This document shows, in pieces, positions 4,237 through 39,176 of a stretch of DNA of 45,568 bases (position 1 is the first letter of the stretch; each line of letters opens with the position of its first letter). A program made the position numbers and the translations under genes. The notes under the pieces are model-generated. The model did no database searches. It had not been told where the DNA came from and saw only the letters and a list, made by a program, of their open reading frames with translations. Source of the DNA: Planctomycetota bacterium (GTDB lineage Bacteria; Planctomycetota; SZUA-567); the NCBI GenBank assembly GCA_031270145.1, contig JAISYD010000258.1:1-45568 (forward strand), given 5' to 3'.

Positions 4237-6735
4237 CTAGCCCTCCTCGCCGCCGCCGGAAACGTATTCCGCCCCGTCGCCGTCCTTGTCGTCGCGGTCG
4301 CCGGGCGCCGCCCGCGCCACCGCCACCAGGGCGTCGTCGTCCTTCAGGCGTATGGCCTTGACCCCCTGGGTGTTGCGGCCGATGACCCGGATGCTGTTCA
4401 CCGGGATGCGGACCACCATCCCCTTGGAGGTGATGAGCATGACGTCGTCGTCCTCCCGCACCGTCATGCAGGCCACCACCGGTCCGGTCTTGTCGGTGAC
4501 GTTCATGTTGATGACCCCCCGGGCGCCGCGCCGGGTGAGGCGGTAATCGGCGAAATCGGAGCGCTTGCCGAAGCCGGAGGCGGAGAGGGTGAGGACGGAG
4601 CAGTTTGGCGCCAGCGCCAGCAGGCTGATGCAGACGTCGTCGTCCTGGAGGCTCATGCCGTTCACCCCGGCGGCGCCCCGGCCCATGCTCCGCACGTCCT
4701 CTTCCTTGAAGTGGCAGGCCAGGCCGTTCCGGGAGGCCAGCATCAGCTCGTCCGTTCCGCCGGTCATCACCACCCCGATCAGTTCGTCGCCGTCGCCGAT
4801 GTTGACGGCGCGGATGCCGCCCTTCTTGGGATGCTGGAAGGCGGAAAGCACCGTCTTCTTGATGACGCCCTGCCGGGTGGCCATGACCAGGAAGTGATCG
4901 TCGTCGAAGGTCCGCACCGGGATCATCGCCGACACCTTCTCCTCCGCGGCGAGGGAAAGGACGTTGGCGATGGAGCGGCCCTTGGCGGCGCGGCCCATCT
5001 CCGGCACGTCGTAGACCTTGAGCCAGTGGACCTGCCCCCTGGTGGTGAAGAAGAGGATGTAGTCGTGGGTGGCGCCGACGAAGAGGCGCTCGATGAAGTC
5101 GCCGTCCTTGAGGTTGGAGCCGGCGACGCCCTTGCCGCCCCGGCCCTGTTTCCGGTAGGCGTCCAGCGCCATGCGCTTGAGGTAGCCGTCGTGCGACACC
5201 ACCACCACCATCTCCTCCTCGGCGATCATGTCCTCGAGCGAGATGTCCTCGGCGGCGGCCACGATTTCGGAGCGGCGGCCGTCGCCGTATTTCTCGATCA
5301 GCTCCAGGCAGTCCTCGCGAATGATGGCGGTGACCAGGCCGCGGTCGGCCAGGATGGCCCGGTAGTCGGCGATTTTCCCGACCAACTCGGCGTATTCGTT
5401 CTCCAGTTCCCGGCGCTGCAGGCCGGTGAGGCGCGACAGGCGCATTTCCAGGATGGCACCGGCCTGGACCTCGGAAAGGGCGAAGGAGGCGATCAGGGCC
5501 GAGCGGGCGGCCGGGACGTCGGGCGAGCCGCGGATGACCCCGATGACCTTGTCGATGTCGTCGAGGGCTTTCAGGAGGCCCTCGAGGATATGGGCTCTGG
5601 CCTCGGCCCGCTTCAGGAGGTACACGGTCCGGCGCCGGATGACCTCGAAGCGGTGGTCGCGGTGGCACTCCAGCATCTGCTTGAGGTTCAGGGTCTCCGG
5701 CCGGCCCTTGACCAGGGCGATGTTGTTGATGGAGAAGTTGGACTGGAGCGGGGTGAGCTTGTAAAGCTGGTTCAGGACGATGTCCGAGTCCTCGCCCGCC
5801 TTCAGCTCGACGACGATGCGGATGCCGTCCTTGTTGGAGTAGTCGTGGATGTTGGCGATGCCGTCGATCCGGCCGTCCTTCACCACTTCGGCGATTTTCT
5901 CGACCAGGGTGGCCAGATTGACCTGGTAGGGGATTTCGGTGACCACGATAGACTGGCGGCCGTTCTTGGCGGTTTCGGTGTGGCAGCGGGCGCGCACGGT
6001 GACCTGGCCCCGGCCGGTGTGGTAAGCCTTGTGGATGCCCTCCCGGCCGCAGATGAGGCTGCCGGTGGGGAAGTCGGGGCCGGGGATGTGGCGGATGAGA
6101 TCCCGGATTTGGATGCCCGGGTCGTCGAGCAGGGCGATTAGCCCCTTGCAGATCTCGGCCAGGTTGTGGGGCGGGATGGAGGTGGCCATGCCCACGGCGA
6201 TGCCGGTGGCGCCGTTCAGCAGGAGCATGGGGGCCTTGGCCGGCATCACTTGCGGCTCTTGCGAGGAGTCGTCGTAATTGGGGACGAAGTCCACCGTGTC
6301 CTTGTCGAGGTCGGCCAGCATCTCGGCGGCGATTTTCGCCATGCGGCATTCGGTGTAGCGCTGGGCCGCCGCCGGGTAGCCGTCGATGGAGCCGAAGTTG
6401 CCCTGGGGATCGACCAGCGGGTAGCGTACCGAGAAGTCCTGGGCCAGCCGCACCAGGGCGTCGTAGATGGAGGCGTCGCCGTGGGGGTGGTAGTTGCCCA
6501 TGCAGTCGCCGACCACCTTGGCGCATTTGCGGTACTTGGCGCCGGCGGTGAGGTTCAGGTCGCTCATGGAATAAAGGATGCGGCGCTGCACCGGCTTCAG
6601 GCCGTCCCGGGCGTCCGGCAGGGCGCGGGAGACGATGACCGACATGGAATAGGTCAGGTAGGAATTTTTCAGCTCGTCTTCGATGGGCAGGGGCTTGACG
6701 CCCGCCGTCTGGGTATTGAAAAGGTTGGAGCTCAT
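4237..6735 (-). CDS. gyrA: DNA gyrase subunit A
   Basis: Breakage-reunion subunit of DNA gyrase (832 residues), which with GyrB introduces negative supercoils using ATP. Visible are the helix-turn-helix region [10 protein letters not shown] (83-92), the catalytic tyrosine Tyr127 in AAQRYTE, and a C-terminal six-bladed domain starting with a GyrA box (QGRGGKG), which identifies gyrase rather than topoisomerase IV. The residue equivalent to E. coli Ser83 is Ala88, while the Asp87 equivalent (Asp92) is kept. The gene starts 43 bases after the gyrB stop, so gyrB-gyrA form one operon. The tail ends in an acidic, glycine-rich stretch. Confidence 0.98.
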
Positions 6736-6778
6736 GGGTGGCGGTTCTCCCGGGTGTCGTTGCGGATGCGGTTTTTGC

Positions 6779-9427
<2,649 letters not shown>

Positions 9428-10599: not shown

Positions 10600-10636
10600 T
10601 TTTTTGTCCGGCGGCATAAACCGAAGGAGGAATCAC

Positions 10637-11623
10637 ATGATCCGCGGATTTTCCCTGATCTTATTGTCGCTTTTGGCCCTGGCCATGGCGGCGCCGGTTG
10701 CCGGCGCGGCCCAATACGTCGTCAAGATTGGTTATGAAAACCATCCCGGCGAACCATTGGACGCCGCCGTCCGGCATTGGAAGAAATTGGCGGAGGAAAA
10801 AACCGGAGGCAAACTCGAAGTCCAGCTGTTCCCCAGTTCCCAGCTTGGTTCCAAAAAGGATCTTATCGAACAAATCCGCATGGGCGGCAACTTGGTGACT
10901 TTTGTCGACGGCAGTTTCCTGGCCGACTTTGTTCCGGACATGGCCATCCTCAACGGACCCTATCTGGCCGACGAGATGATGGATATCGTCAAGCTCCCAG
11001 AATCCGACTGGTGGAAGGGGCTGGAAAAGCAACTGGAAGCCAAGGACCTCCATATACTCGCCTTCAATTTCCTCTACGGCATTCGCAACATGGTCGTAAA
11101 AAAGCCTGTCCACGCCCCGGCGGATCTCAACGGCCTGAAGATACGCGTCCCCAACAACAAAATCCAGCTTGAGGGCATTTTGGCCATGGGCGCCATCCCC
11201 ACCCCCATGCCGCTGGCCGAGGTTTATCCCGCCCTGACCCAGGGCGTCATCGACGGCGCCGAAAATCCCATCCCCGTGCTTTACGGACAGAAACACCACG
11301 AGGCGGCCAAATACCTGATCCTCACCAAGCACCTGGACAACATCACCGGCTTCGTGGCCAATCCGGACTTCCTGAAGGAGTTGCCGCCGGAAATCGTCAA
11401 GGCTTTCGAGGAGGCGGCGTACGAGGCCGGCGAATTCAGCCAAAAATTGGCCCTGGACGCCGATCGGGAATACACGGAAAAAATCAAGGCGGAAGGCGGC
11501 GTGATCATCGAGGTGGACATCACACCCTTCCAAGAGGCCACCAAAGTCGTGTATAGCAAATTTCCCGAATGGACGCCCGGCCTTTATGAAAAAGTGAGAG
11601 GCATCATGTACGGCGGAAAATGA
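10637..11623 (+). CDS. TRAP transporter substrate-binding protein (DctP family), first system
   Basis: Periplasmic solute receptor of a TRAP transporter (328 residues), which delivers an organic acid or related anion to the DctQM permease. An N-terminal signal peptide (hydrophobic run ending PVAGAA) precedes the DctP fold, with the conserved GLKIRVPNN arginine segment and the AEVYPALTQGVIDGAEN motif. ATG 10637 follows AAGGAGGAATCAC; the track start at 10604 is upstream of this site and is wrong. dctQ and dctM follow on the same strand, giving a complete transporter. Base composition is GC-rich like the backbone, unlike the second system at 17.3 kb. The substrate cannot be named. Confidence 0.93.
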   Translation: MIRGFSLILLSLLALAMAAPVAGAAQYVVKIGYENHPGEPLDAAVRHWKKLAEEKTGGKLEVQLFPSSQLGSKKDLIEQIRMGGNLVTFVDGSFLADFVPDMAILNGPYLADEMMDIVKLPESDWWKGLEKQLEAKDLHILAFNFLYGIRNMVVKKPVHAPADLNGLKIRVPNNKIQLEGILAMGAIPTPMPLAEVYPALTQGVIDGAENPIPVLYGQKHHEAAKYLILTKHLDNITGFVANPDFLKELPPEIVKAFEEAAYEAGEFSQKLALDADREYTEKIKAEGGVIIEVDITPFQEATKVVYSKFPEWTPGLYEKVRGIMYGGK

Positions 11624-11696
11624 GATTCCGGCGCCGGGCGCGCGGCTTTCGCGGCCCGGCGCCGGCAGTTGGCCAATTCCCGACGGGTAACGATTC

Positions 11697-12278
11697 ATGG
11701 ATGACCAAGACGCGCCGGCATCGCGCCCCTCCCTCCGGCAAGACTGGCGGGGCTATGTCTGCCGGAACCCCGACGATTTGCTGGCTGCCCTTTGCCTGGC
11801 GGGCCTGATCGGCCTGATGTTTTTCTCCATCCTCATGCGTTACCTGTTCAAAACGCCCCTGATGTGGTCGGAGGAGGTAATTACCCTCCTGTTCATGTGG
11901 GTGATCGGACTGGGCGCGGTTTCGGCTCAGAAAACCCGCCGCCACCTGGTCGTCGATCTGCTGACGGCCGCCCTTCCCCCGCGCCTCCAGGTCGGGATCG
12001 GCATCCCGACCAAGCTGGTTTACCTGGCGGTCGTCGTCGCCACCGGCTATTACGGCTGGCTGCTTTCCCTCATGGCCCGCGACAAGATAACCAACATGCT
12101 TAGCATCCCCTACACCTATATGGACATCGCCATCCCCGTCGGCATGCTGGGTATGGCGGTTTTCATCCTGCGCGATCTCCGCCGCGATTTCCTGGCCCTG
12201 TTCCCGGGCCGGCCGGGGCCGCCGATCCAGGACATCGTCGCCGAGATCGAGGCCGAGGCGTTGCGGGACGGAAAATAA
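11697..12278 (+). CDS. TRAP transporter small permease (DctQ family), first system
   Basis: Four-helix membrane subunit (193 residues) that links the binding protein to the large permease. Hydrophobic segments lie near residues 27-47, 60-80, 100-125 and 140-160, with the family-typical SEEVITLLFMWVIGLGA stretch after the first helix. It begins with a hydrophilic extension of about 25 residues and ends with a charged tail. It sits 73 bases after dctP and 51 bases before dctM. The ribosome binding site is weak (GGGTAACGATTC), so expression may depend on coupling to dctP. Confidence 0.88.
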   Translation: MDDQDAPASRPSLRQDWRGYVCRNPDDLLAALCLAGLIGLMFFSILMRYLFKTPLMWSEEVITLLFMWVIGLGAVSAQKTRRHLVVDLLTAALPPRLQVGIGIPTKLVYLAVVVATGYYGWLLSLMARDKITNMLSIPYTYMDIAIPVGMLGMAVFILRDLRRDFLALFPGRPGPPIQDIVAEIEAEALRDGK

Positions 12279-12329
12279 TCCCCGGCAAAAATCTGGCGGC
12301 CGGTCCGCCGGAGCTGGAGAGCGGACGCC

Positions 12330-13613
12330 ATGGAAGTGTATCTCCCCGTCATACTGATGCTTTTGGGGTTGTTCCTAGGTCTACCCGTCTTCCCCTCGAT
12401 ATTCCTCGCGGTGTTGATCTATTTTCCGCTGGCCGGCAACCCCCGCGCGGCCATAGGGGTGCAGCGGCTGATCGGCGCGGCCGAGAATTCGGTCATCCTC
12501 GCCGTGCCTTTTTTTATCATGGTCGGTAGCCTGATGAACTATACGGGCATCACCCGGCGCATGCTCAATCTGGCCGATGTCCTCTCCGGCCGCTTGGCCG
12601 GCGGCTTGGCCCAGACCAACATCCTCCTCTCCACCCTCATGGGGGGCATATCCGCCTCCAACCTGGCCGATTGCGCCATGACCTGCAAAGTGCTGGCGCC
12701 GGAAATGGAGCGCCGCGGCTTCAGCCGGGAATACTCCGCCGCCGTCACCGCCGCCAGCAGCCTGATCACCCCGATCATTCCGCCGGGCATCGCCCTGATC
12801 ATCTACGGCTACGTAGCCGACGTCTCCATAGGCAGGATGTTCATGGCCGGCATCATCCCCGGCCTCTCCATCTTCCTCGCCATGGCCGTCGCCACCCACA
12901 TAATATCCCGCCGCCGAGGCTACAAGCCCAGCCGCGCGGCTTGGCCCACGCTAGGCGAATTGGCCGCGGCGGTCTGGAACGCCCTGCCCGGGCTGTCGCT
13001 GGTGCTGGTAATCATCGGCGGCATCCGCCTAGGCGTTTTCACGCCCACCGAGGCCGGGGCGGCGGCGGTGGTGTTCATCATCGCCATCGGGACCCTGGTG
13101 TACCGGGAGATGCGCCTGGAGCATCTTTATTACGCCCTGGTAGACTGCGCCCGCTCCACCGCCTCCATCATGTTGGTCATCATGGCCTGTTCCGCCTTCT
13201 CCTGGATATTGTCGTGGGAGCAGGTGACGCTCCACATCACCCGGTACATCACCGGCGTCACCGACGATCCTCGAGTTTTCCTGGCGGCGCTGAACATTTT
13301 CCTCCTGATCTGCGGCATGTTCATGGAGGGGAACGCCCTCCTCATCGTCCTGGTGCCGATCCTGAAGCCCACCGCCGTGGCCATGAACATCGACCTAGTC
13401 CAATTCGGCATCATCTTTATCATCAATCTGGCCATAGGCACCTTGACCCCGCCGATCGGGACGGTGACGCTCCTGGCCGTCAACCTGACCAATTCCCGGA
13501 TGGGGCCGTTCCTCAAGGAATTATTGCCCTATCTTGGCTGCCTGTTGTTGGTGCTGCTACTCTGTACCTATTGGCCGGCCTATGTCGCCTGGTTCCCCGA
13601 TCTGGCGCAATGA
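12330..13613 (+). CDS. TRAP transporter large permease (DctM family), first system
   Basis: Translocating subunit of the TRAP system (427 residues), an ion-coupled secondary transporter with about 12 membrane segments. Family hallmarks include the NSVILAVPFFIMVGSLMNYTGI segment, the STLMGGISAS loop, ITPIIPPGIALIIYGYVA, and GTLTPPIGTVTLLAVN near the C-terminus. A GGAGAG ribosome binding site precedes ATG 12330. It completes the first dctPQM set. No convincing terminator follows; the next 149 bases before the IS remnant look empty. Confidence 0.94.
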   Translation: MEVYLPVILMLLGLFLGLPVFPSIFLAVLIYFPLAGNPRAAIGVQRLIGAAENSVILAVPFFIMVGSLMNYTGITRRMLNLADVLSGRLAGGLAQTNILLSTLMGGISASNLADCAMTCKVLAPEMERRGFSREYSAAVTAASSLITPIIPPGIALIIYGYVADVSIGRMFMAGIIPGLSIFLAMAVATHIISRRRGYKPSRAAWPTLGELAAAVWNALPGLSLVLVIIGGIRLGVFTPTEAGAAAVVFIIAIGTLVYREMRLEHLYYALVDCARSTASIMLVIMACSAFSWILSWEQVTLHITRYITGVTDDPRVFLAALNIFLLICGMFMEGNALLIVLVPILKPTAVAMNIDLVQFGIIFIINLAIGTLTPPIGTVTLLAVNLTNSRMGPFLKELLPYLGCLLLVLLLCTYWPAYVAWFPDLAQ

Positions 13614-14435: not shown

Positions 14436-15245
14436 GTGAACAACACCATTAAGCGGACGATGAACGTGCTGGCCCTGATTGCGGAGTCCAATCAATCGTT
14501 GAATATGGCGGAAATACGCAAGGCGCTCAATTTACCCAAAAGCACCGCCTCGGACATATTGAATTCGCTTGTGGAACTGGGAATTTTGAACTTCAACCCC
14601 GATGATGGTAATTCGTTAACGCTAGGCGAAGCGTTTTTCTGGTTGTCTGCGAAATTCGTCAACAATAACGGGCTTCTCTCGATTGCGAGAGGATGCATGC
14701 AGCCGTTGGCTGAAAAAATCGGATTATCCGTTTTCCTGTCCGTATTCAGGAATGGGAAAATGACTTTTCTTGAAAAAACCGATGCCGACAATGCATTGCA
14801 ACCTAATTATCTATCCGGAAGCGTATCTCCGCTGCACGCAAGTGCCTGCGGCAAGGCATTCTTGGCGATCCATGATTTCCCGGACATCAAGTCATTGGTG
14901 GGTTGTGAACCATTCGAGAGATTTACCAAAAATACACTGGTAAGTTATGGGGAACTTTTGATTGATATTGAAGCGGCGAGAGAGAGGAAATACAGCATTG
15001 AAAACATGGAACGGACGGATCAGATAGTGGGAGTTGCCGCCCCAATTCGACAGGCGGATAGTTCTGGAATCGCGGCCATATCGGTATTGGGTTTGTGCCA
15101 ACACATGCCTGACGACAGAATGGCCGTGATTGGATCGGAAATATCCATGGCGGCTCTGCGCATTTCCAAAAGATTGGGATTTGTGGGGAATAATGTCTTG
15201 GCGTCATTCGACGGCGCCCATGATAAACATACCCTGCGTCTATGA
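14436..15245 (+). CDS. IclR-family transcriptional regulator, upstream copy
   Basis: DNA-binding regulator (269 residues) with an N-terminal winged helix (LNMAEIRKALNLPKSTASDI, about residues 22-41) and a C-terminal IclR effector domain containing the conserved LHASACGKAFLA and VAAPIRQ segments. The start is GTG 14436 with GAGGTG upstream. It is the first gene of the island operon, 31 bases before the CoA-transferase, and probably senses the pathway substrate and controls its own promoter. A second IclR gene closes the cluster, so the pathway is bracketed by two related but clearly different regulators. The C-terminal tail of about 20 residues beyond the domain is unusual. Confidence 0.92.
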   Translation: MNNTIKRTMNVLALIAESNQSLNMAEIRKALNLPKSTASDILNSLVELGILNFNPDDGNSLTLGEAFFWLSAKFVNNNGLLSIARGCMQPLAEKIGLSVFLSVFRNGKMTFLEKTDADNALQPNYLSGSVSPLHASACGKAFLAIHDFPDIKSLVGCEPFERFTKNTLVSYGELLIDIEAARERKYSIENMERTDQIVGVAAPIRQADSSGIAAISVLGLCQHMPDDRMAVIGSEISMAALRISKRLGFVGNNVLASFDGAHDKHTLRL

Positions 15246-15276
15246 TGTGCGGGGAAGGATCGGGGAGGGAGAAAAC

Positions 15277-16455
15277 GTGATTGAAGGAGTTAGGATTCTT
15301 AGTTTTACGCATTACCTGCAAGGACCTTCGGCTGTGCAAAACTTGGCCGATTTGGGCGCCGATGTCATTAAAATCGAACCGCCCAAGGGTGCGTATGAGC
15401 GCCATTGGTCCGGGTGCAATACGTATGTCAACGGGATCAGCGTATTTTATATGCTTGCCGGACGCAACCAACGCGCCGTCGCCCTTGATTTGAAGTCCGA
15501 AGACGGGGTAAGGGTGATATATGAACTGGTGAAAAAATACGATGTCGTGGTCGAAAACTTCAAGGTTGGAGTCATGGATCGCCTGGGACTCGGCTACGAG
15601 AAGCTCAAGGAAGTCAACCCGCGCGTAATCTATTGTTCCTGCTCTGGCTATGGAGCCAGCGGACCAAAATCGAAGCAACCGGGTCAAGATCTTTTGGCGC
15701 AAGGCATGGGCGGACTGGCGGAACTGACCGGACCTGGGGATCGCCCCCCATCCGCCGTCGGGACTCCTGTCGTGGACCAGCATGCCGCTGTTCTGGCGGC
15801 CCTAGGCATTTTGGCGGCGATATATAACCGCGATAGAACCGGTGATGGCTGCAAGGTGGACAATTGCCTTCTTAACGCCGCCATAGATCTCCAACAGGAG
15901 CCCATTTGTTATTTTATGAACGGCGGCAAACTCACCGAGCGGCCGTCGACTGGCCTGAGTTCTAGGATGCATCAATCTCCATATGGGATATACAAGACGA
16001 AGGATTCCTCCATAACGTTATCCCTAACATCTTATTCCACCCTGAAGGAAATCTTTTCCCCGGGGTCTTTGGATAGTTTCAAGCCGGAAGATCAGATGGA
16101 AAACCGAATTGAATTCGACAGGGTAGTTGCGACGGAAATGCTGAAACGCACCACGGCGGAATGGACGGAAATATTCGAAAGGCATTCCATTTGGTATGCT
16201 CCGGTCAATTTTTATCCGGAACTCGTCAAGGACCCGCAGGTTATCCACAACGAGATAATATTGGAACTCGATACTCCTGAAGCCGGGCCGATCAAAGTTT
16301 TGAATCATCCCGTCCGTTACAATGGCAAGGCTCCGGAATTGCGCAGGAATCCCCCGAAATTAGGGGAGCACACCGTTGAAGTACTTAGGGAAATCGGGTA
16401 CGCCGACGAGGCGATCAAATCATTGCTTGCATCGGGAATTGCCAAAGGACTGTGA
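15277..16455 (+). CDS. Type III CoA-transferase (CaiB/BaiF/Frc family)
   Basis: Transfers CoA between an acyl-CoA donor and a free organic acid, the activation step of many catabolic routes (carnitine, oxalate, aromatic and branched dicarboxylic acids). The 392-residue length is typical. It starts VIEGVRILSFTHYLQGPSA and has LGADVIKIEPP and the conserved aspartate Asp138 in PGQDLLAQGMGGL, the residue that forms the acyl-anhydride in this family. GTG 15277 follows GGGAGAAAAC; the track ORF beginning at 15130 overlaps the regulator and is too long. The adjacent hydratase and TRAP genes suggest it activates the imported acid. The substrate is unknown; CaiB-like naming should be avoided without data. 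Confidence 0.92.
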   Translation: MIEGVRILSFTHYLQGPSAVQNLADLGADVIKIEPPKGAYERHWSGCNTYVNGISVFYMLAGRNQRAVALDLKSEDGVRVIYELVKKYDVVVENFKVGVMDRLGLGYEKLKEVNPRVIYCSCSGYGASGPKSKQPGQDLLAQGMGGLAELTGPGDRPPSAVGTPVVDQHAAVLAALGILAAIYNRDRTGDGCKVDNCLLNAAIDLQQEPICYFMNGGKLTERPSTGLSSRMHQSPYGIYKTKDSSITLSLTSYSTLKEIFSPGSLDSFKPEDQMENRIEFDRVVATEMLKRTTAEWTEIFERHSIWYAPVNFYPELVKDPQVIHNEIILELDTPEAGPIKVLNHPVRYNGKAPELRRNPPKLGEHTVEVLREIGYADEAIKSLLASGIAKGL

Positions 16456-16507
16456 CTCCGAAGGAAAGAACGATTTGTGTTTCCTGAAGCCCGGGGAGAG
16501 AGGGAAC

Positions 16508-17296
16508 ATGGACTATATCAATAAACTTGTGCGTATTGAAAAGAAAAACAAGGGCGTCTGCCTGGTGACTCTGAACAATCCGCCATTGAACCTTGTCACG
16601 CTTCCGTTGAGGGATGAATTTAATGACGCGTTGCGGAAACTGGATGTTGACGGAACCGTACGGGTAGTCGTATTGACCGGATCCGGATCGCGCGCCTTTT
16701 GCGTGGGTTCTGACGTCAAGGAATTTCCTGAAGTTTGGGACGACGTCGTGGGAAAGAAACTGCAGAAGGAGAATGAAACCTTCAACGCCATTGAATTTCT
16801 TTCTCGCCCGGTATTATGCGCCATGGAAGGCGTAGTCTGCGGCGGCGGGTTCGAAATAGCCATGGCCTGCGACATGCGGATACTGTCGGAACGGGGCAAA
16901 ATAGCCATGCCTGAAATCAATTTGGGCGTTTTTCCCGGCAGCGGCGGCCTATTCCGCCTGCCTAAGTTGGTCGGACCCTCCAAAGCCATGGAAATGATGT
17001 ATCTCGGAGAGTTCGTGGAAGCCGAGGAATGTGTGCGCATTGGATTGGTGAACCGCCTGGCCCCGGAAGGGAAAGCGGTGGAAAAGGCGTTGGAGATCGC
17101 CGAGGAAATTGCCGTCAAGCCTTTCGAGGCCGTCAAGTTAATCAAACGAGGAGTTCGAGACCTTGGCCGGAAGTCCACGGAGGAATCCTTTATTGATAAT
17201 CTCCGTTACAGTAAGGAGATATTCAAAACTCCCGATTGCGCCGAGGGTGTGGACGCTTTTCTCCATAAGCGCAAACCGGCATTCAAACAGGTATAA
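16508..17296 (+). CDS. Enoyl-CoA hydratase/isomerase (crotonase family)
   Basis: Crotonase-fold enzyme (262 residues) acting on a CoA thioester. The oxyanion-hole segments are present (SRAFCVGSDV and VVCGGGFEIAMACD). Both glutamates needed for syn-hydration are kept: Glu116 in GGGFE and Glu136 in MPEINLGVFPGSGG, which favours a true hydratase over an isomerase. ATG 16508 has GGAGAGAGGG in front; the track start at 16376 overlaps the CoA-transferase. It lies 52 bases after that gene, so the two probably act in sequence, with the CoA-activated acid (or its dehydrogenated product) being hydrated to a beta-hydroxyacyl-CoA. Confidence 0.93.
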   Translation: MDYINKLVRIEKKNKGVCLVTLNNPPLNLVTLPLRDEFNDALRKLDVDGTVRVVVLTGSGSRAFCVGSDVKEFPEVWDDVVGKKLQKENETFNAIEFLSRPVLCAMEGVVCGGGFEIAMACDMRILSERGKIAMPEINLGVFPGSGGLFRLPKLVGPSKAMEMMYLGEFVEAEECVRIGLVNRLAPEGKAVEKALEIAEEIAVKPFEAVKLIKRGVRDLGRKSTEESFIDNLRYSKEIFKTPDCAEGVDAFLHKRKPAFKQV

Positions 17297-17352
17297 TATA
17301 TTTTCGGCCGAAGCCGAAAATAATTTCATCGTTCGTGTCAGGAGGAATCAGG

Positions 17353-18330
17353 ATGAGAAAATTGTGTGGTGTCGTAATGATTGGATGCTTTTGCATTTTC
17401 GCGCTGTCCCAATCATTGGTTTACGCCGGGCAATACACATTGAAAATGTCGACGTCGCAAGGTGAAACCCATCCCCTGGTGGAGGGATTCAGGGAATGGG
17501 CGAAACGAGTGGCTATCCGCACCAATGGCAATTTGAATATCGAAGTGTATCCGAGTTCGCAACTCGGCAACGACGAAGATGTCATTGAACAGGCCATCAA
17601 CGGCCTCAACGTCGCCATCCTCACCGATGGTGCGCGCATGGCCAACTACGTGAAGGAAATGGGCATCATCATGTTGCCTTATTTCTCCGATTCATACGAC
17701 GAGTTCATGCAGGTGTGCAATTCGGCGGAATTCAAGGAATGGGAAGATCGCCTTACCAGCGAGGGCCTGAAAGTCATCAATTTCAATTGGACCGACGGCT
17801 TCCGCCATTTCCTCAATAATGTTCCGGTCCGCAAGCCCGCCGATCTGAGAGATCAGCGAGTCCGTACGGGAGGATCCCCCGTCTATATCGAATCCGTGGC
17901 GTCGCTGGGCGCTACCCCGGTCGCCATGCCGCTCACCGAGGTCTATCCCGCCGTACAGCAAAAGGCCATTGACGGAGTGGAACAACAAAACACGGCCAAC
18001 TATACCTATCGCTTTTATGAAGTGTTGCATTATCTCAATAAAACTTCGCATATCCTCCTCATCAACGGGATAGTTTGTTCCAATTCATGGTATGAGGGAA
18101 TTCCGGACGAATACAAGAAAGCCCTGACTGATGAGGCGGTGGCGATAGCGGAAGTTACCTCGAGGAAGATTCTTGGTTTGTCGGATGATTATGAGAAGAA
18201 GATGATCGAGGCGGGCATGGAATTAGTGGAAGTGGATTTGGATGCATTTAAAAAATCCAGCGAGGCGGTGTATAATAAACTGGGCTACGCCGATCTCCGT
18301 GACCGCATATACAAACAGATAGGAAAATGA
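17353..18330 (+). CDS. TRAP transporter substrate-binding protein (DctP family), island system
   Basis: Periplasmic receptor (325 residues) with a signal peptide ending near SLVYAG and the DctP core: YPSSQLGNDEDVIEQ, RDQRVRTGGSP (conserved arginine) and LTEVYPAVQQKAIDGVEQQN. ATG 17353 follows AGGAGGAATCAGG; the track ORF begins six codons earlier. Its stop overlaps the dctQ start (ATGA), so the three transporter genes are coupled. It is clearly different in sequence from the first DctP at 10.6 kb and shares the lower GC of the island, so it likely carries the acid handled by the neighbouring CoA-transferase. Confidence 0.93.
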   Translation: MRKLCGVVMIGCFCIFALSQSLVYAGQYTLKMSTSQGETHPLVEGFREWAKRVAIRTNGNLNIEVYPSSQLGNDEDVIEQAINGLNVAILTDGARMANYVKEMGIIMLPYFSDSYDEFMQVCNSAEFKEWEDRLTSEGLKVINFNWTDGFRHFLNNVPVRKPADLRDQRVRTGGSPVYIESVASLGATPVAMPLTEVYPAVQQKAIDGVEQQNTANYTYRFYEVLHYLNKTSHILLINGIVCSNSWYEGIPDEYKKALTDEAVAIAEVTSRKILGLSDDYEKKMIEAGMELVEVDLDAFKKSSEAVYNKLGYADLRDRIYKQIGK

Positions 18331-18857
18331 TGTTAGCCGGCATCAGACGAGTCTACGGTTTTGTGACGGCCGCCGAAGCCATGATAATCCAGGCATTTGT
18401 CATTGTCATCGCCTTCATGGTTTTCATTTCCGCCATGGCGAGGACTCTGGGGTATCCTTTGAATTGGAGTGTAGATATTTCCTTGCTGTTGCTTGGCTGG
18501 ACGGTCGGCCTCGGAGGCGACTTGGCATTGCGCCGGAATCGGGTGGTGAGCGTCGATATGATAGTGAATCTTTTTCCATTGAAAATCAGGAAAATCATCG
18601 CCCTTCTCTGGTGTATGGTCATGGCCGTTTTCCTGATATACCTCGTTAAGTTTGGCATTGATTTATGCCTCTCCAATCGAAAAAGAGTGTACCAGACTCT
18701 TCAAATAGGGTATATTTGGGCGACGGCGTCTGTTCCGACCGGAGCTTTTCTAATGTTGGTGACCACTGTGATTCGCTTTTTCAAGATATGGTTGGATATG
18801 CCGTTGACAACTCCGGATGCCGGTTCGAACGACGACGCGCCGGGAGGGTCGTTCTGA
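18327..18857 (+). CDS. TRAP transporter small permease (DctQ family), island system
   Basis: Small membrane subunit (176 residues) with about four hydrophobic helices (near 20-40, 50-68, 88-110 and 128-150). NWSVDISLLLLGWTVGLGGDLALRRN is the typical conserved central stretch. It overlaps dctP by 4 bases and dctM by 1 base, which implies coupled translation at fixed ratios. It ends in a short hydrophilic tail. Confidence 0.9.
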   Translation: MMLAGIRRVYGFVTAAEAMIIQAFVIVIAFMVFISAMARTLGYPLNWSVDISLLLLGWTVGLGGDLALRRNRVVSVDMIVNLFPLKIRKIIALLWCMVMAVFLIYLVKFGIDLCLSNRKRVYQTLQIGYIWATASVPTGAFLMLVTTVIRFFKIWLDMPLTTPDAGSNDDAPGGSF

Positions 18858-20140
18858 TGCTTATTGTGACATTGGCGTTCGTTGTATTTCTCGTTTTCGG
18901 CATGCCGGTGGCGTTTGTCATAGGCATATCTGGTTTTCTATATTTTCTTTGCAATTCGGATGTTCCCACCGCCATTGCGGTACAGCGGTTTCTTGCGACT
19001 ACCCAATCGTTTACCATGCTGGCCATACCGCTTTTCATTTTTGCGGGACATTTGATGAATCACACGGGGATCACGCAACGTATGGTAAAACTTTCCGATG
19101 TCCTTACCGGTCACATGTACGGGAACATTGCGCAAATCAGTTGCGTCTTGTCTACGCTGATGGGCGGCGTGTCGGGTTCGGCCGTTGCCGACGCCGCCAT
19201 GGAATCCAGGGTTCTCGGACCAGCTATGATCAAGCGGGGGTATTCGCGCGGATGGAGTGCCGCCATCAACGGACTGTCTTCAATCATCACCTCCACAATT
19301 CCTCCGAGCATGGGGCTTATCCTGTTCGGATCCGTGGGAGAAGTATCGATAGGGCGACTTTTCGCCGGAGGCATTCTCCCGGGAATTCTCATGATGGCGG
19401 CACTTATGGCAACGGTATCGATTTCCGCCAGGCGTCGTAATTACCTTCCCGAGAGGGCGCGCGGACCAACTTTGCGCGAAGTGTTCACGTCCTTCTATGA
19501 TTGTTTGTGGGCGTTGTTATTCCCGATTATTCTCATTTTCGGCATACGTTTCGGATTGTTCACTCCGTCTGAGGCCGGAGCTTTCGCCGTCGTGTATGCC
19601 GTTTTCGTGGGGAGGGTCATACATCGGGAACTCACTTGGGAAAAATTTCGTACGGCGGTTTTCGAAAGCGGAGTGGACATTGGCGCAGTAATGCTGATTA
19701 TCGCCTGCGCCGGCATTTTCGGATTCGGGATAGTATATGACCGCGTTCCCCAGTTTTTGGCCGGATTTCTTATTTCTTTTACCAATAATTCCTATTTAAT
19801 GTTTCTGGCGATTATCATATTCCTGATCTTGGCCGGTATGTTCATGGAAACCACTGTTATAACTCTGTTAATGACGCCCATACTCCTGCCTGTGGCGATA
19901 AAGGTGGGAATTGATCCGGTTCATTTCGGCCTTGTGATGATGACGACGGTTCAGCTTGGCATCATGAGTCCGCCGGTTGGCGTGGCCTTATATACCGTGT
20001 CTGGAATATTGGAATGCAGCCCCCAAGAGACGGCGCGGGAGGCAATCCCGTTTTTTATCGCCATTCTTGTTCTCATTGCGGTTATGGTTTTTTGGCCGGG
20101 TCTGGTCCTATTCATTCCCAATCTGATTTTTGGCGTTTAG
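18857..20140 (+). CDS. TRAP transporter large permease (DctM family), island system
   Basis: Large translocating subunit (427 residues) starting MLIVTLAFVVFLVFGMPVAF, which is typical for DctM. Conserved parts include TMLAIPLFIFAGHLMNHTGI, STLMGGVSGSAVADAAME, ITSTIPPSMGLILFGSVG and GIMSPPVGVALYTVSGI. ATG 18857 overlaps the dctQ stop and is preceded by GGGAGGG. The track ORF from 18665 is an upstream extension inside dctQ. With the two preceding genes it forms a complete TRAP transporter dedicated to the island. Confidence 0.94.
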   Translation: MLIVTLAFVVFLVFGMPVAFVIGISGFLYFLCNSDVPTAIAVQRFLATTQSFTMLAIPLFIFAGHLMNHTGITQRMVKLSDVLTGHMYGNIAQISCVLSTLMGGVSGSAVADAAMESRVLGPAMIKRGYSRGWSAAINGLSSIITSTIPPSMGLILFGSVGEVSIGRLFAGGILPGILMMAALMATVSISARRRNYLPERARGPTLREVFTSFYDCLWALLFPIILIFGIRFGLFTPSEAGAFAVVYAVFVGRVIHRELTWEKFRTAVFESGVDIGAVMLIIACAGIFGFGIVYDRVPQFLAGFLISFTNNSYLMFLAIIIFLILAGMFMETTVITLLMTPILLPVAIKVGIDPVHFGLVMMTTVQLGIMSPPVGVALYTVSGILECSPQETAREAIPFFIAILVLIAVMVFWPGLVLFIPNLIFGV

Positions 20141-20228: not shown

Positions 20229-20260
20229 TAACATATTTTGGTTGATTGAGAGGCCGGAAC

Positions 20261-21949
20261 ATGGAACGTTTGCTGACGGACGTGCTGGTGATTGGCGGCG
20301 GCGGCGCCGCAATGCGGGCCGCCATCGCCGCCTGCGATGCGGGAGTATCTGTCCTGATGGCGGTTAAAGGCGGAACGGGAGGCGGAGCCACCGGGTTCGG
20401 GGTGTCGGAAATGGCGGGATACAATTCTCCGGACGGCGCCGTCGATCCATCGGATAGTCCGGAAGCGTATTATGACGACATCATAGAGGCGGGAATGGGT
20501 ATGGCCATTCCGGACGTTGCCCAAGTGGTGGCGGACAACGCCGAAGCGACGGTCCGGCAACTGGAAGAATGGGGCGTGCGTTATGAGCGCAATCCGGATG
20601 GCGGGCTTTATGCTTTCAAGAGTTGTTACTCCAACAAAGCGCGTACCCATGTTATTAAGGGCCACGGGGAACCAATTGTCAAGGCGATGGATGAACAAAT
20701 CGGTAAGCGCGACATATCAATAATCGAAAATATCCAGGTGGTGTCCTTGACGATCAGGGACGGCATGTGTGTTGGAGCTGTAGCCGTGACGCGGAATGGT
20801 GGTTATTTGTTCATCTCGGCCAAGGCGACGGTATTGGCGACCGGCGGCGCTTCCCGGATAATGGCCAAGAATATGAATCCCCCCGAGGTTACCGGGGACG
20901 GCTATGCGATGGCTTTCAAAGCCGGCGCCGAGTTGATTAATATGGAATTTATGCAGGCCGGGATCGGATTTATCTATCCGGCCGTAAGCCTTATCAACGC
21001 CTATATATGGGGTGGACATCCGACTCTACGCAATGTTGAGGGGAAGGAATTCATGTCCTCGCTTCCGGCTGGCGTTAATTGGAAGGATGTCATGGATGAA
21101 CACCGCAGGCATTTCCCTTTCAGTTCTCGGGATATTTCCAGGCATCTGGAAGTATGCATACAACGAGAAATATCGGATGGAAGGGGAACCGCGAACGGCG
21201 GCGTATACGCCGATTTCACAATGATGACGGATGCGTATGTCGGCGGCCTCTCGAATGAATACGGCATTCATCGCATGTGGCCCTTGGCGAAGGATTATTT
21301 CCTTTCGAAAAAGATAAGGGTTGACGCGGACAAAAAGACGGAAATCGCCTGTTTTTCCCATGCCATAAATGGCGGCGTCAGGATTGACGCGAACGCTGAA
21401 ACTTCCATACCCGGATTATACGCCGCCGGAGAAACGGCGGGCGGTCCGCATGGAGCGGATCGGCTTGGCGGAAACATGCTGGTGACATGCCAGGTATTTG
21501 GACGAATCGCTGGGGAACGGGCAGCCGCAGTGTCAGCATCCAGTCATGCGCATGCCGCCGAGCTCGCCGATTTCAGGAACGCCCTCGATGAGACGAGGAA
21601 TATCCTGTCCCGAAAAATCGACGCGTGCGCCATTCGCGGCGAACTGTCGGCGATGACGCAAAATTGCCTTTTGGTCAGGCGTACTGCCGCCGGACTCGAT
21701 TCGCTTTCGCGACGCATTGACGGACTTGAAATGCAAATATTGGCGGCGCCGGGTTCCGATACTGTCCATCCTGAAAATATGGAAACGGCAAATCTCCTGT
21801 TATGCGCGAAAATTATGGCGTATTCCGCCATGTGCCGCGAGGAAAGCCGCGGCAGCCATTTCCGCGAGGACTTCCCCGTCGTTAATCCTAACTTTGGGAA
21901 GCCCAGGATCGTTGACAAAAGAATATTTCCGACTCGTATTCTCGAATAA
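20261..21949 (+). CDS. FAD-dependent oxidoreductase, fumarate reductase/SdhA-like flavoprotein
   Basis: Soluble flavoprotein (562 residues) of the FAD-binding 2 family. The N-terminal Rossmann motif GGGGAAMRAAIAA (12-24), the GGASRIM and late GPHGADRLGGNML (about 394-407) elements and the C-terminal ESRGSHFREDFP motif place it with SdhA, FrdA, aspartate oxidase and AprA. Fumarate-reductase substrate motifs are not conserved: QFHPTG is replaced by MQAGIGF, RGEGG is not seen, and the covalent-FAD His motif is absent. No signal peptide, FMN-binding domain or adjacent Fe-S subunit is present. It probably catalyses a cytoplasmic dehydrogenation or enoate reduction in the island pathway. ATG 20261 follows GAGAGG; the track start is a TTG 15 bases earlier. 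Confidence 0.88.
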   Translation: MERLLTDVLVIGGGGAAMRAAIAACDAGVSVLMAVKGGTGGGATGFGVSEMAGYNSPDGAVDPSDSPEAYYDDIIEAGMGMAIPDVAQVVADNAEATVRQLEEWGVRYERNPDGGLYAFKSCYSNKARTHVIKGHGEPIVKAMDEQIGKRDISIIENIQVVSLTIRDGMCVGAVAVTRNGGYLFISAKATVLATGGASRIMAKNMNPPEVTGDGYAMAFKAGAELINMEFMQAGIGFIYPAVSLINAYIWGGHPTLRNVEGKEFMSSLPAGVNWKDVMDEHRRHFPFSSRDISRHLEVCIQREISDGRGTANGGVYADFTMMTDAYVGGLSNEYGIHRMWPLAKDYFLSKKIRVDADKKTEIACFSHAINGGVRIDANAETSIPGLYAAGETAGGPHGADRLGGNMLVTCQVFGRIAGERAAAVSASSHAHAAELADFRNALDETRNILSRKIDACAIRGELSAMTQNCLLVRRTAAGLDSLSRRIDGLEMQILAAPGSDTVHPENMETANLLLCAKIMAYSAMCREESRGSHFREDFPVVNPNFGKPRIVDKRIFPTRILE

Positions 21950-22087: not shown

Positions 22088-22831
22088 ATGATCAACAGCG
22101 TGATCAGGGCCATTGGAATACTCTATCTGTTCCGCGAACATAAGCGCCTGTCGTTGGCCGAGATTGCCGATTTGAGCGGCTTGCATAAAACCACCGCCCA
22201 CGGCTTGGTTCTTACCCTCCTTTCGGAACATTTTTTAGAACAGAACAAAAGGACGAGGCGCTATTCGTTGGGTGCAACGTTGTTTGAACTTGGCGGTCTG
22301 TACAGAGCCCGGCTCGACGCTTTCGGATTCTGTCTTCCCTATATGCGCGAATTGAGCCAGATCACCGGGAAGACGGTTCAACTCGCCACTCTTGTCGACA
22401 GCGATGTCGTATATCTTTCCAGGGTGGTAACCAAGGACTTTTTGGGTTTTTCCGTGGCCGACGGGGTAAGAAGAGCCGCACACTGTACCTCAACGGGAAA
22501 AGCCATGCTTGCATTGCTTGCCGACGCGGATCTGGACGGAATATACCCGACCGACGATTTGCGCGCTCGGACCTCTCACAGCATACGAACGCGTGAAGGA
22601 TTGAGGGAAAATATAAGAAAGATACGGGAGCAAAAATATGCTGTGGATTATCAGGAGGCGGAATTGGGATTGTGCGGTATGGCGATTGGTTTTCGGGCAG
22701 ACCGCCCCATGGCCATTTCCATTTCTTGTACCGCCGACATCATGGATAGCGGACAAAGCCGCGCCTATATAGAGCCGTTACTTGAACTGCGTTGCAAAAT
22801 TCAAGAACAATTCGGCGCCGTTTCGATATAA
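22088..22831 (+). CDS. IclR-family transcriptional regulator, downstream copy
   Basis: Second IclR regulator of the island (247 residues), with a winged helix (LSLAEIADLSGLHKTTAHGL, about 20-39) and an effector domain with VRRAAHCTSTGKAMLA and the GLCGMAIGFRAD segment. It starts at ATG 22088, with GAGGG upstream, immediately after the 44-codon ORF. It reads in the same direction as the operon, so it may be co-transcribed with the catabolic genes or have its own promoter. It differs clearly from the first IclR, so a recent duplication is unlikely. It is the last intact gene before the IS66 remnant. Confidence 0.92.
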   Translation: MINSVIRAIGILYLFREHKRLSLAEIADLSGLHKTTAHGLVLTLLSEHFLEQNKRTRRYSLGATLFELGGLYRARLDAFGFCLPYMRELSQITGKTVQLATLVDSDVVYLSRVVTKDFLGFSVADGVRRAAHCTSTGKAMLALLADADLDGIYPTDDLRARTSHSIRTREGLRENIRKIREQKYAVDYQEAELGLCGMAIGFRADRPMAISISCTADIMDSGQSRAYIEPLLELRCKIQEQFGAVSI

Positions 22832-37871: not shown

Positions 37872-39176
37872 TTACACCGGCCAGCCAAACCAGGCCGGCA
37901 GCCACAGGGAAAGCTCCGGCACGGCGGCGGTGGCGGCGAGGCAGAGGAGCAGGGCGGCGAGGAAGGGCAGGCTGGCCCTGGCGCTTTGCCGGCTTCCCGT
38001 CCCGGCCTCCCGGGCGGCGGCGGCGAGATTGGCGGCCTGGGGCGGGGTAAGCAGGCCGACCGCGACGTTCACCGCGAGCATGGCTCCGAAATGCGGCGGC
38101 GACAGGCCGCATTTCGCGGCCAGCGGCAACAACAGCGGCGCCGCCAGGGCGACGATGGCGGGCAGATCCAGGAGGCAACCGGCCGCCAACAACAATAAAT
38201 TCATCAGGATTATGGCCCCGCCGGAGCCGCCGGCCAGGGCGAATAGCCTTTCCGCCAGCCGTTGCTGGAAGCCCGCCGCCTCCAGCAGGGACAGGAACAG
38301 GCCGGCCACCCCCACCAGCAGCAGGATTTCCGCGGCGGCTAGGGCGGCTTGGCGCATGGCGTCCATGATGGCGGCCAGCCCGGCCGGGCGGCGGAGGCAG
38401 GCAATCGCCGCGTAGGCCGAGGCGAAGGCGGCCGCCTCCGGGGCGTTGAAAAAACCGCTGAACAAGGTTGCGAGCGTCAAGACCGGCAACAGGATTGACC
38501 ATTTTGCCCGCCATAGCGCGGCCCGGCGCCGGATCGGCGGAATTTCCGCGGCGACGGCCGGATTGTCCGCTAGGCGCGGGAAAAAGCGGCTGGCCGCCAG
38601 AAGCGCCGCCGCCGCCAGGACGCCGGGCAGGAAACTGGCGGTGAAGACGATATTCGCCGGCAGGCCGGCGGCGGCGGCGTAAATGGTGAGCGCCGGGCTG
38701 GCCGGGATGATGACGCAAAGCCCGGCGGCGGCGGCAATGGCGCCGGCGGCATCCTCCCGCCTGAATCCGTCTGGCGGCGGGGAGCGAAGCAGCCGCCGGG
38801 TTTGTTCCCTCGCCGCCGCCGGACCCATCCCCGACACGGCGCCCAGGAAGGCGCAGCCGAGGATGGCCCTGGCGCCCACGCTCCGGCGACCCGTTCCGGC
38901 GATGGCGTCGGCGGTTTCCAGCAAACCGGCGGCATGGCCCGACGCCAGAGCCAGTTCGCCGGCCAGGGCGGCAAGCGGAATGGATATCAAGGCGGGCGAA
39001 TTCAGCCGCATGGCCAGACTGTAATTCAGGAAAAAGCCGTCCGGCAGCGGATTCGGGTTGAGGCAGACGAGAAGGGCGGCGGCGAAGAATGTCGCCGCCG
39101 CCAGAGGCACGGCGGATAGCGCCATAAGAGCCAGGACGGCGAAGGCCAACGGGATGAGGCCGGGCTCGATAATCAT
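37872..39176 (-). CDS. TRAP-type large permease (DctM-like), third system
   Basis: Very hydrophobic protein (434 residues) with about 12 membrane segments and recognisable but divergent DctM features, such as GCAFLGAVSGMGPAAA in place of STLMGGVSGS, VIIPASPALTIYAAAAGLPA in place of IPPS-type motifs, and AVNVAVGLLTPPQAANLAAA near the end. It is Ala/Leu-rich. Its start overlaps the upstream dctQ-like gene by 4 bases (ATGA). No DctP binding protein is present nearby, so the receptor must be encoded elsewhere or the system works without one. Confidence 0.8.
   Translation of the reverse strand: MIIEPGLIPLAFAVLALMALSAVPLAAATFFAAALLVCLNPNPLPDGFFLNYSLAMRLNSPALISIPLAALAGELALASGHAAGLLETADAIAGTGRRSVGARAILGCAFLGAVSGMGPAAAREQTRRLLRSPPPDGFRREDAAGAIAAAAGLCVIIPASPALTIYAAAAGLPANIVFTASFLPGVLAAAALLAASRFFPRLADNPAVAAEIPPIRRRAALWRAKWSILLPVLTLATLFSGFFNAPEAAAFASAYAAIACLRRPAGLAAIMDAMRQAALAAAEILLLVGVAGLFLSLLEAAGFQQRLAERLFALAGGSGGAIILMNLLLLAAGCLLDLPAIVALAAPLLLPLAAKCGLSPPHFGAMLAVNVAVGLLTPPQAANLAAAAREAGTGSRQSARASLPFLAALLLCLAATAAVPELSLWLPAWFGWPV

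Follow-up and report, generated by a model that had tools for sequence, protein, structure and literature searches.

A clade of fumarate reductase-like flavoproteins with a partly replaced active site, encoded beside CoA-transferase and enoyl-CoA hydratase genes

Introduction

Flavoproteins of the Frd/Sdh/NadB superfamily are usually described with one catalytic kit arranged around an arginine proton donor. A gene in a Planctomycetota assembly (GenBank accession number GCA_031270145.1, contig JAISYD010000258.1, positions 1 to 45,568; this stretch of 45,568 nt is called the window below) encodes a member of the superfamily in which motifs of that kit were not recognized. What chemistry could such a protein carry out, on what kind of substrate, and where would its electrons go? 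The initial annotation, made from the sequence alone, had proposed a substrate and an electron carrier different from those of fumarate reductase, possibly in a soluble enoate reductase or dehydrogenase acting on the acid of the surrounding gene island. Here we describe the gene, its relatives, the residues of its active site and its gene neighborhoods, and weigh the functions that these suggest.

Results

The ORF at 20261 to 21949 (+ strand) is a real gene with its start at ATG 20261, and a ribosome-binding-like site, GAGAGG (20248 to 20253, + strand), lies 7 nt upstream. By Pfam domains, alignments and fold the 562-aa product is an FAD flavoprotein of the Frd/Sdh/NadB superfamily. The FAD-binding and C-terminal features of SdhA/FrdA read from the sequence at first sight were recovered as the Pfam domains FAD_binding_2 (2e-51) and Succ_DH_flav_C (8e-12), and the C-terminal RxESRGxHxRxD motif common to FrdA/SdhA and the archaeal TfrA is found in the alignment. 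The N-terminus, MERLLTDVLVIGGGGAAMRAA, is already the dinucleotide-binding strand itself, so a signal peptide is absent, and the Pfam scan detected no FMN-binding domain in the protein; both agree with the initial annotation. The best NCBIfam matches are the TfrA, SdhA and NadB models, with scores of 291, 225 and 215 bits against curated cut-offs of 718, 567 and 453, respectively.

An AlphaFold2 model (seven sequences) was obtained with a mean pLDDT of 74 and a pTM of 0.81; residues 42-80, 196-210, 240-245, 366-369 and 399-404, which are active-site loops, have pLDDT below 50. In Foldseek searches the model matched SdhA/FrdA over the full length (TM about 0.7, E down to 1e-28), followed by NadB and, more weakly, AprA. 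This placement agrees with the C-terminal helical domain and sets the flavoprotein apart from the UrdA/Fcc3 branch. In the tree, the flavoprotein falls in a supported clade apart from the FrdA/SdhA and NadB groups (support 100/98 and 97/93), and clade support is 99 after adding AprA and removing long rows. A different gene of the same genome, of the NadB type (at G000:C193), groups with E. coli NadB. The flavoprotein is a member of an uncharacterized clade of a known superfamily, beside the L-aspartate oxidase and FrdA/SdhA groups.

The protein is not a lone oddity, as its relatives form one widespread clade. Relatives with 40 to 52% sequence identity are found in Synergistales, Desulfallas, Halalkalibacter, Ammoniphilus, a Clostridiaceae MAG, an Agrobacterium plasmid and a member of the host's own genus. 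The distribution is rare and patchy (e.g., five of 399 genomes sampled from the Desulfallas phylum at E <1e-100). The sole annotated relative is named just "FAD-binding protein". Searches of mostly non-subscription literature on the gene set, on the flavoprotein family and on isosaccharinate catabolism brought up no description of it.

For the residue survey, 20 clade members were aligned with 21 outgroup proteins of the FrdA/SdhA/NadB type, and the flavoprotein was separately aligned directly with E. coli FrdA, SdhA and NadB (E. coli FrdA numbering is used for reference positions). The position of the covalent-FAD histidine (His44) is occupied by Phe or Gly depending on the alignment; across the clade it is Gly, Tyr or Phe by register and never His (0/20). 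His232 of the HPTG motif corresponds to Gly234 (Gly in 19 of the 20 members), Arg248 of the RGEGG motif to Trp250 (Trp in 19/20), and Thr244/Glu245 to Asn246/Ala247, with Glu245 lost in all 20. The outgroup retains Arg248 in all 21 proteins and His232 and Glu245 in 20 each. The three absences first noticed in the single protein (HPTG, RGEGG and the FAD-linking histidine) are therefore real and clade-wide. The substitution pattern cannot be put down to chance, since 19 to 20 of the 20 relatives share it and the outgroup retains each residue in 20 or 21 of its 21 proteins. A lone mutant or degenerate gene was ruled out, as the relatives carry identical substitutions in intact ORFs.

The other half of the site is unchanged. 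The carboxylate clamp of the FAD domain (His355/Arg390) is present as His367/Arg401 and is kept in 20/20. Judged by alignment, the cap-side kit appears dismantled and the flavin-side clamp preserved across the clade. The description of the active site as non-canonical thus stands for His232, Glu245 and Arg248, which are gone, and fails for the clamp, so that the site is only half non-canonical. The catalytic proton donor of FrdA, Arg287, aligns to Arg290 of the flavoprotein, although a 3-residue insertion makes the register uncertain; the clade has Arg in 9/20 at this position, with six Ser, three Tyr and two Ala. All 20 members share a new motif, H-[FY]-P-F-[ST] (His284-[Phe/Tyr]-Pro286-Phe287-[Ser/Thr]), which reads His284-Phe-Pro-Phe-Ser288 in the flavoprotein. 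Other clade-wide new residues are Cys122, Asn227, Pro254, Ser293, Asn370, Asp400, Met406 and Gln411.

We take Arg248, Glu245, Arg287 and His232 of FrdA (established numbering) to be the counterparts of the proton path and the substrate-binding histidine of flavocytochrome c3. In the latter enzyme, the proton path consists of Arg380/381, Glu377/378 and Arg401/402, and a carboxylate of fumarate is bound by His364/365 (PMC7921117). A milder precedent for the pattern seen here is UrdA of Shewanella (PDB 6T85), in which, as in the flavoprotein, the HPTG His is replaced and the Arg/His clamp of the FAD domain is kept; the proton-path Glu is also lost, so that UrdA takes a one-carboxylate substrate (PMC7921117). 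Unlike the flavoprotein, UrdA retains both proton-path arginines (Arg390 and Arg411) and has a covalent-FMN domain (PMC7921117). The flavoprotein differs in turn by its Succ_DH_flav_C helical domain, by a fold closest to complex II subunits and only weakly similar to Fcc3, and by having neither an FMN-binding domain nor a secretion signal. It shares with FrdA/SdhA and TfrA the fold, the FAD motif, the H355/R390 pair and the C-terminal motif; it differs from them in lacking the covalent-FAD His, HPTG, TE and RGEGG, in the unconserved Arg287 of its clade and in that no FrdB-type partner was found. AprA and archaeal PAPS reductase share the superfamily fold, and AprA, like the flavoprotein, has a Trp at the flavin (A234; PMC2211403). 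AprA was nonetheless rejected as nearest kin: the AprA proteins of two of the same genomes lack all signature motifs as well as HGADRLGGN and branch far away.

The gene order around the flavoprotein is IclR, class III CoA-transferase, enoyl-CoA hydratase, DctP, DctQ, DctM, flavoprotein and IclR, all on the + strand. The family III CoA-transferase (CaiB/BaiF; 15190 to 16455, start uncertain) has the GQD motif with the catalytic Asp. The enoyl-CoA hydratase (crotonase; 16376 to 17296, real start probably downstream of 16376) has both active-site Glu (GGGFE and PEINLG). The TRAP transporter genes encode the solute-binding protein DctP (17335 to 18330), the small permease DctQ (18327 to 18857) and the large permease DctM (18857 to 20140; its ORF is open from 18665 and ATG 18857 overlaps the dctQ stop). 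The closest solved binding proteins to DctP are named DctP only, and the literature search found no paper giving their ligands. No sugar-acid gene is present in the window's own operon.

On either side of the operon lies a gene for an IclR-family regulator (14436 to 15245 and 22088 to 22831); the two regulators differ, and both genes are on the + strand. A second full TRAP system (DctP, DctQ and DctM; 10604 to 13613) lies just upstream on the same strand and has no catabolic gene associated with it; at 37872 to 39176 (- strand) there is a third DctM-like gene. This catabolic island sits between housekeeping genes, with gyrA/gyrB (4237 to 9346, - strand) on one side and alaS, an M50 peptidase gene, rpsB, clpX and the trigger factor gene on the other.

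No Fe-S or cytochrome gene was recognized among the scanned ORFs of the window and none adjoins the flavoprotein gene, whose neighbors are those listed above, as the initial annotation had stated. An Fe-S partner encoded elsewhere, which would have spoken against that annotation, was rejected: no Fer2_3 domain of the SdhB/FrdB type turned up anywhere in the assembly, whose completeness is 85% (the same search was positive in 11 of 14 control genomes). The tricarballylate dehydrogenase TcuA, an FAD-dependent free-acid dehydrogenase of the wider superfamily encoded in a catabolic operon, works with the Fe-S protein TcuB. The flavoprotein differs from it, as it scores 94 bits with the TcuA model (cut-off 369) and a TcuB-like protein is absent here. 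Like the flavoprotein, NadB is a single soluble subunit with non-covalent FAD, has the same domains, the C-terminal helical one included, and works without an Fe-S partner; unlike it, NadB still has the dicarboxylate-site residues His, Thr, Glu, Arg and Arg, and it forms a separate supported clade. A missing partner is not unusual by itself, because L-aspartate oxidase and yeast Osm1 are soluble single-subunit members of the superfamily (PMC10238741). The proposal of a substrate and carrier different from those of FrdA draws its support from the clade-wide loss of the distal carboxylate site (His232) and the apparent dismantling of the Arg248-Glu245-Arg287 path, together with the failure to find an Fe-S partner nearby or in the assembly. 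The single electron transfer flavoprotein (ETF) of the genome, which lies together with an acyl-CoA dehydrogenase gene on another contig (G000:C316), is a candidate electron carrier.

Gene neighborhoods of 18 clade loci were compared with those of five control loci (FrdA-like or distant relatives; the controls have long flanks and all come from one phylum). A CoA-transferase of class I or class III is present in 16/18 clade loci and in none of the controls (Fisher p 0.0006), and an enoyl-CoA hydratase in 14/18 against 0/5 (Fisher p 0.004). A MaoC protein is encoded at 11 and an acyl-CoA dehydrogenase at seven of the 18 loci (0/5 controls for both). TRAP systems occur in 12/18 (0/5 controls); in others the transport system is tripartite-tricarboxylate-like or a sugar-type ABC system. 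Both catalytic Glu are present in 12/12 crotonases, and the Asp of GQD in 4/4 class III CoA-transferases. The arrangement closest to that of the window is locus L057 (CoA-transferase III, crotonase, flavoprotein, DctPQM). The window's CoA-transferase III is 54 to 55% identical to the flavoprotein's neighbor in Halalkalibacter and Ammoniphilus, and loci L006 and L008 repeat the gene set with a CoA-transferase at this level of identity. The recurrence in distinct phyla, in different gene orders and with transferases of either class suggests that the flavoprotein is functionally linked to the CoA-transferase and crotonase. That TRAP, CoA-transferase and crotonase genes are linked to the flavoprotein again and again supports a catabolic role for the island's acid. 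In half of the loci (9/18) sugar-acid genes are also found, namely KDG kinase with or without KDPG aldolase, UxuA (mannonate dehydratase), UxaA (altronate dehydratase), a DHDPS-type aldolase or AraD1, and this sugar-acid connection in the relatives is suggestive.

Discussion

The fold, the clade, its residue signature and the gene linkage are direct observations. As to function, we hold with roughly even confidence that the flavoprotein is a soluble cytoplasmic enzyme with non-covalent FAD which acts before CoA activation and oxidizes or reduces a C-C bond adjoining a free carboxylate. The substrate is probably an organic acid and perhaps a sugar-derived one. The free acid would enter through the TRAP system, and its carboxylate would be bound by His367/Arg401 on the FAD domain, beside flavin N5, so that hydrogen could be added to or taken from the adjacent C-C bond. 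Gly234, Trp250 and His284-Phe-Pro-Phe-Ser288 may form a pocket rebuilt for a part of the substrate other than a second carboxylate. The proton would be carried by a residue other than FrdA Arg287, the first candidate being the invariant His284. In the desaturase direction the acid would become an enoate, the class III CoA-transferase would convert it to the enoyl-CoA and the crotonase would add water. Electrons might leave through a diffusible acceptor (the single ETF would be one), or pass to a second organic substrate in ping-pong fashion, the way L-aspartate oxidase uses fumarate. For several relatives, the genes nearby suggest a sugar-derived acid that would enter at 2-keto-3-deoxygluconate.

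Desaturation is preferred over reduction by a small margin, because the minimal operons (window, L057 and L077) would otherwise lack a source of enoyl-CoA for the crotonase. Two points weigh against it. Seven of the 18 loci encode an acyl-CoA dehydrogenase, beside which a further desaturase would be superfluous unless it worked on another part of the molecule. The lack of a covalent flavin bond predicts a flavin potential lower by about 100 mV, which favors reduction over oxidation (PMC10238741).

The main rival is accordingly an enoate reductase, which would saturate an α,β-unsaturated free acid and draw its electrons from reduced flavin, ETF or ferredoxin. The purpose would be to dispose of reducing equivalents, or to make the acid ready for activation with CoA and dehydrogenation of the acyl-CoA. 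Besides the flavin potential, this rival is favored by the lone soluble homologs such as yeast Osm1, which are fumarate reductases (PMC10238741), by UrdA with the same partial substitution (PMC7921117), and by the same acyl-CoA dehydrogenase genes, whose products could supply the oxidative step. The enoyl-CoA problem of the minimal operons counts against it; furthermore, the arginine proton donor that FrdA, Fcc3 and UrdA have in common is found in just 9/20 clade members, and the protein has neither an NADH nor an FMN domain, nor a donor gene dedicated to it. We consider an enoate reductase rather unlikely. A redox-neutral flavoenzyme, in which a hydride passes to FAD and then back to the molecule it came from (an isomerase, epimerase or dehydratase of a sugar-derived acid), would need no electron partner. 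Such a mode fits the lack of a nearby partner and of a detected SdhB-type subunit in the genome, the loss of the usual proton path, and neighboring sugar-acid genes that need 3-deoxy or epimerized acids. We know of no Frd/Sdh/NadB superfamily member that works in this way, and we regard the idea as improbable. An ordinary L-aspartate oxidase or fumarate reductase/succinate dehydrogenase, diverged in sequence with its function kept, is very improbable in spite of the shared fold and the TfrA, SdhA and NadB best matches, given scores far under the curated cut-offs, the clade-wide loss of the dicarboxylate-binding His, Glu and Arg, and the separate NadB-type gene of the genome.

Returning to the desaturase reading, a bolder version can be drawn, to which we give little credence: the clade would represent a new type of enzyme, serving a CoA-dependent pathway for acids derived from sugars. 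Its substrate would be a free acid resembling a 3-deoxy-aldonate, desaturated or rearranged by the flavoenzyme at the position adjoining the carboxylate; something other than the family arginine would carry the proton, and no dedicated electron partner would be involved. The product would be the enol of a 2-keto-3-deoxy acid entering at KDG, while the CoA-transferase, MaoC and crotonase would handle related acids by beta-elimination.

Compared with the initial annotation, the finding is stronger in that it defines an uncharacterized clade, and weaker in that the canonical site is half preserved and homologs that are soluble and lack a partner are known. A widespread clade that has only the flavin-side clamp, with the cap-side kit discarded and the arginine unconserved, would show that the scaffold can do its chemistry differently. 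The gene set (CoA-transferase, crotonase, MaoC and TRAP) recurs in Synergistales, Bacillota and Pseudomonadota as a catabolic module that seems not to have been described. The clade proteins are at risk of being misnamed as fumarate reductase or aspartate oxidase.

Some genomes carry two flavoprotein copies. In Ammoniphilus (L048 and L008; G101 contig C7) the clusters that contain them are neighbors separated by about 18 kb and differ in the class of their CoA-transferase (III in one, I in the other), and at L010 the two copies are within 10 kb. A long-branch relative with 36% identity (L042; G031 C226) displays a partial signature, with Gly at H232, Val at R248 and an HHWPVS motif, and has no CoA genes nearby; it is a possible intermediate. 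At L041 (G005, same genus as the host), the flavoprotein gene adjoins cis-3-hydroxyproline dehydratase-like, DHDPS-type and MocA-type genes instead of CoA genes, which is possibly a second use of the clade.
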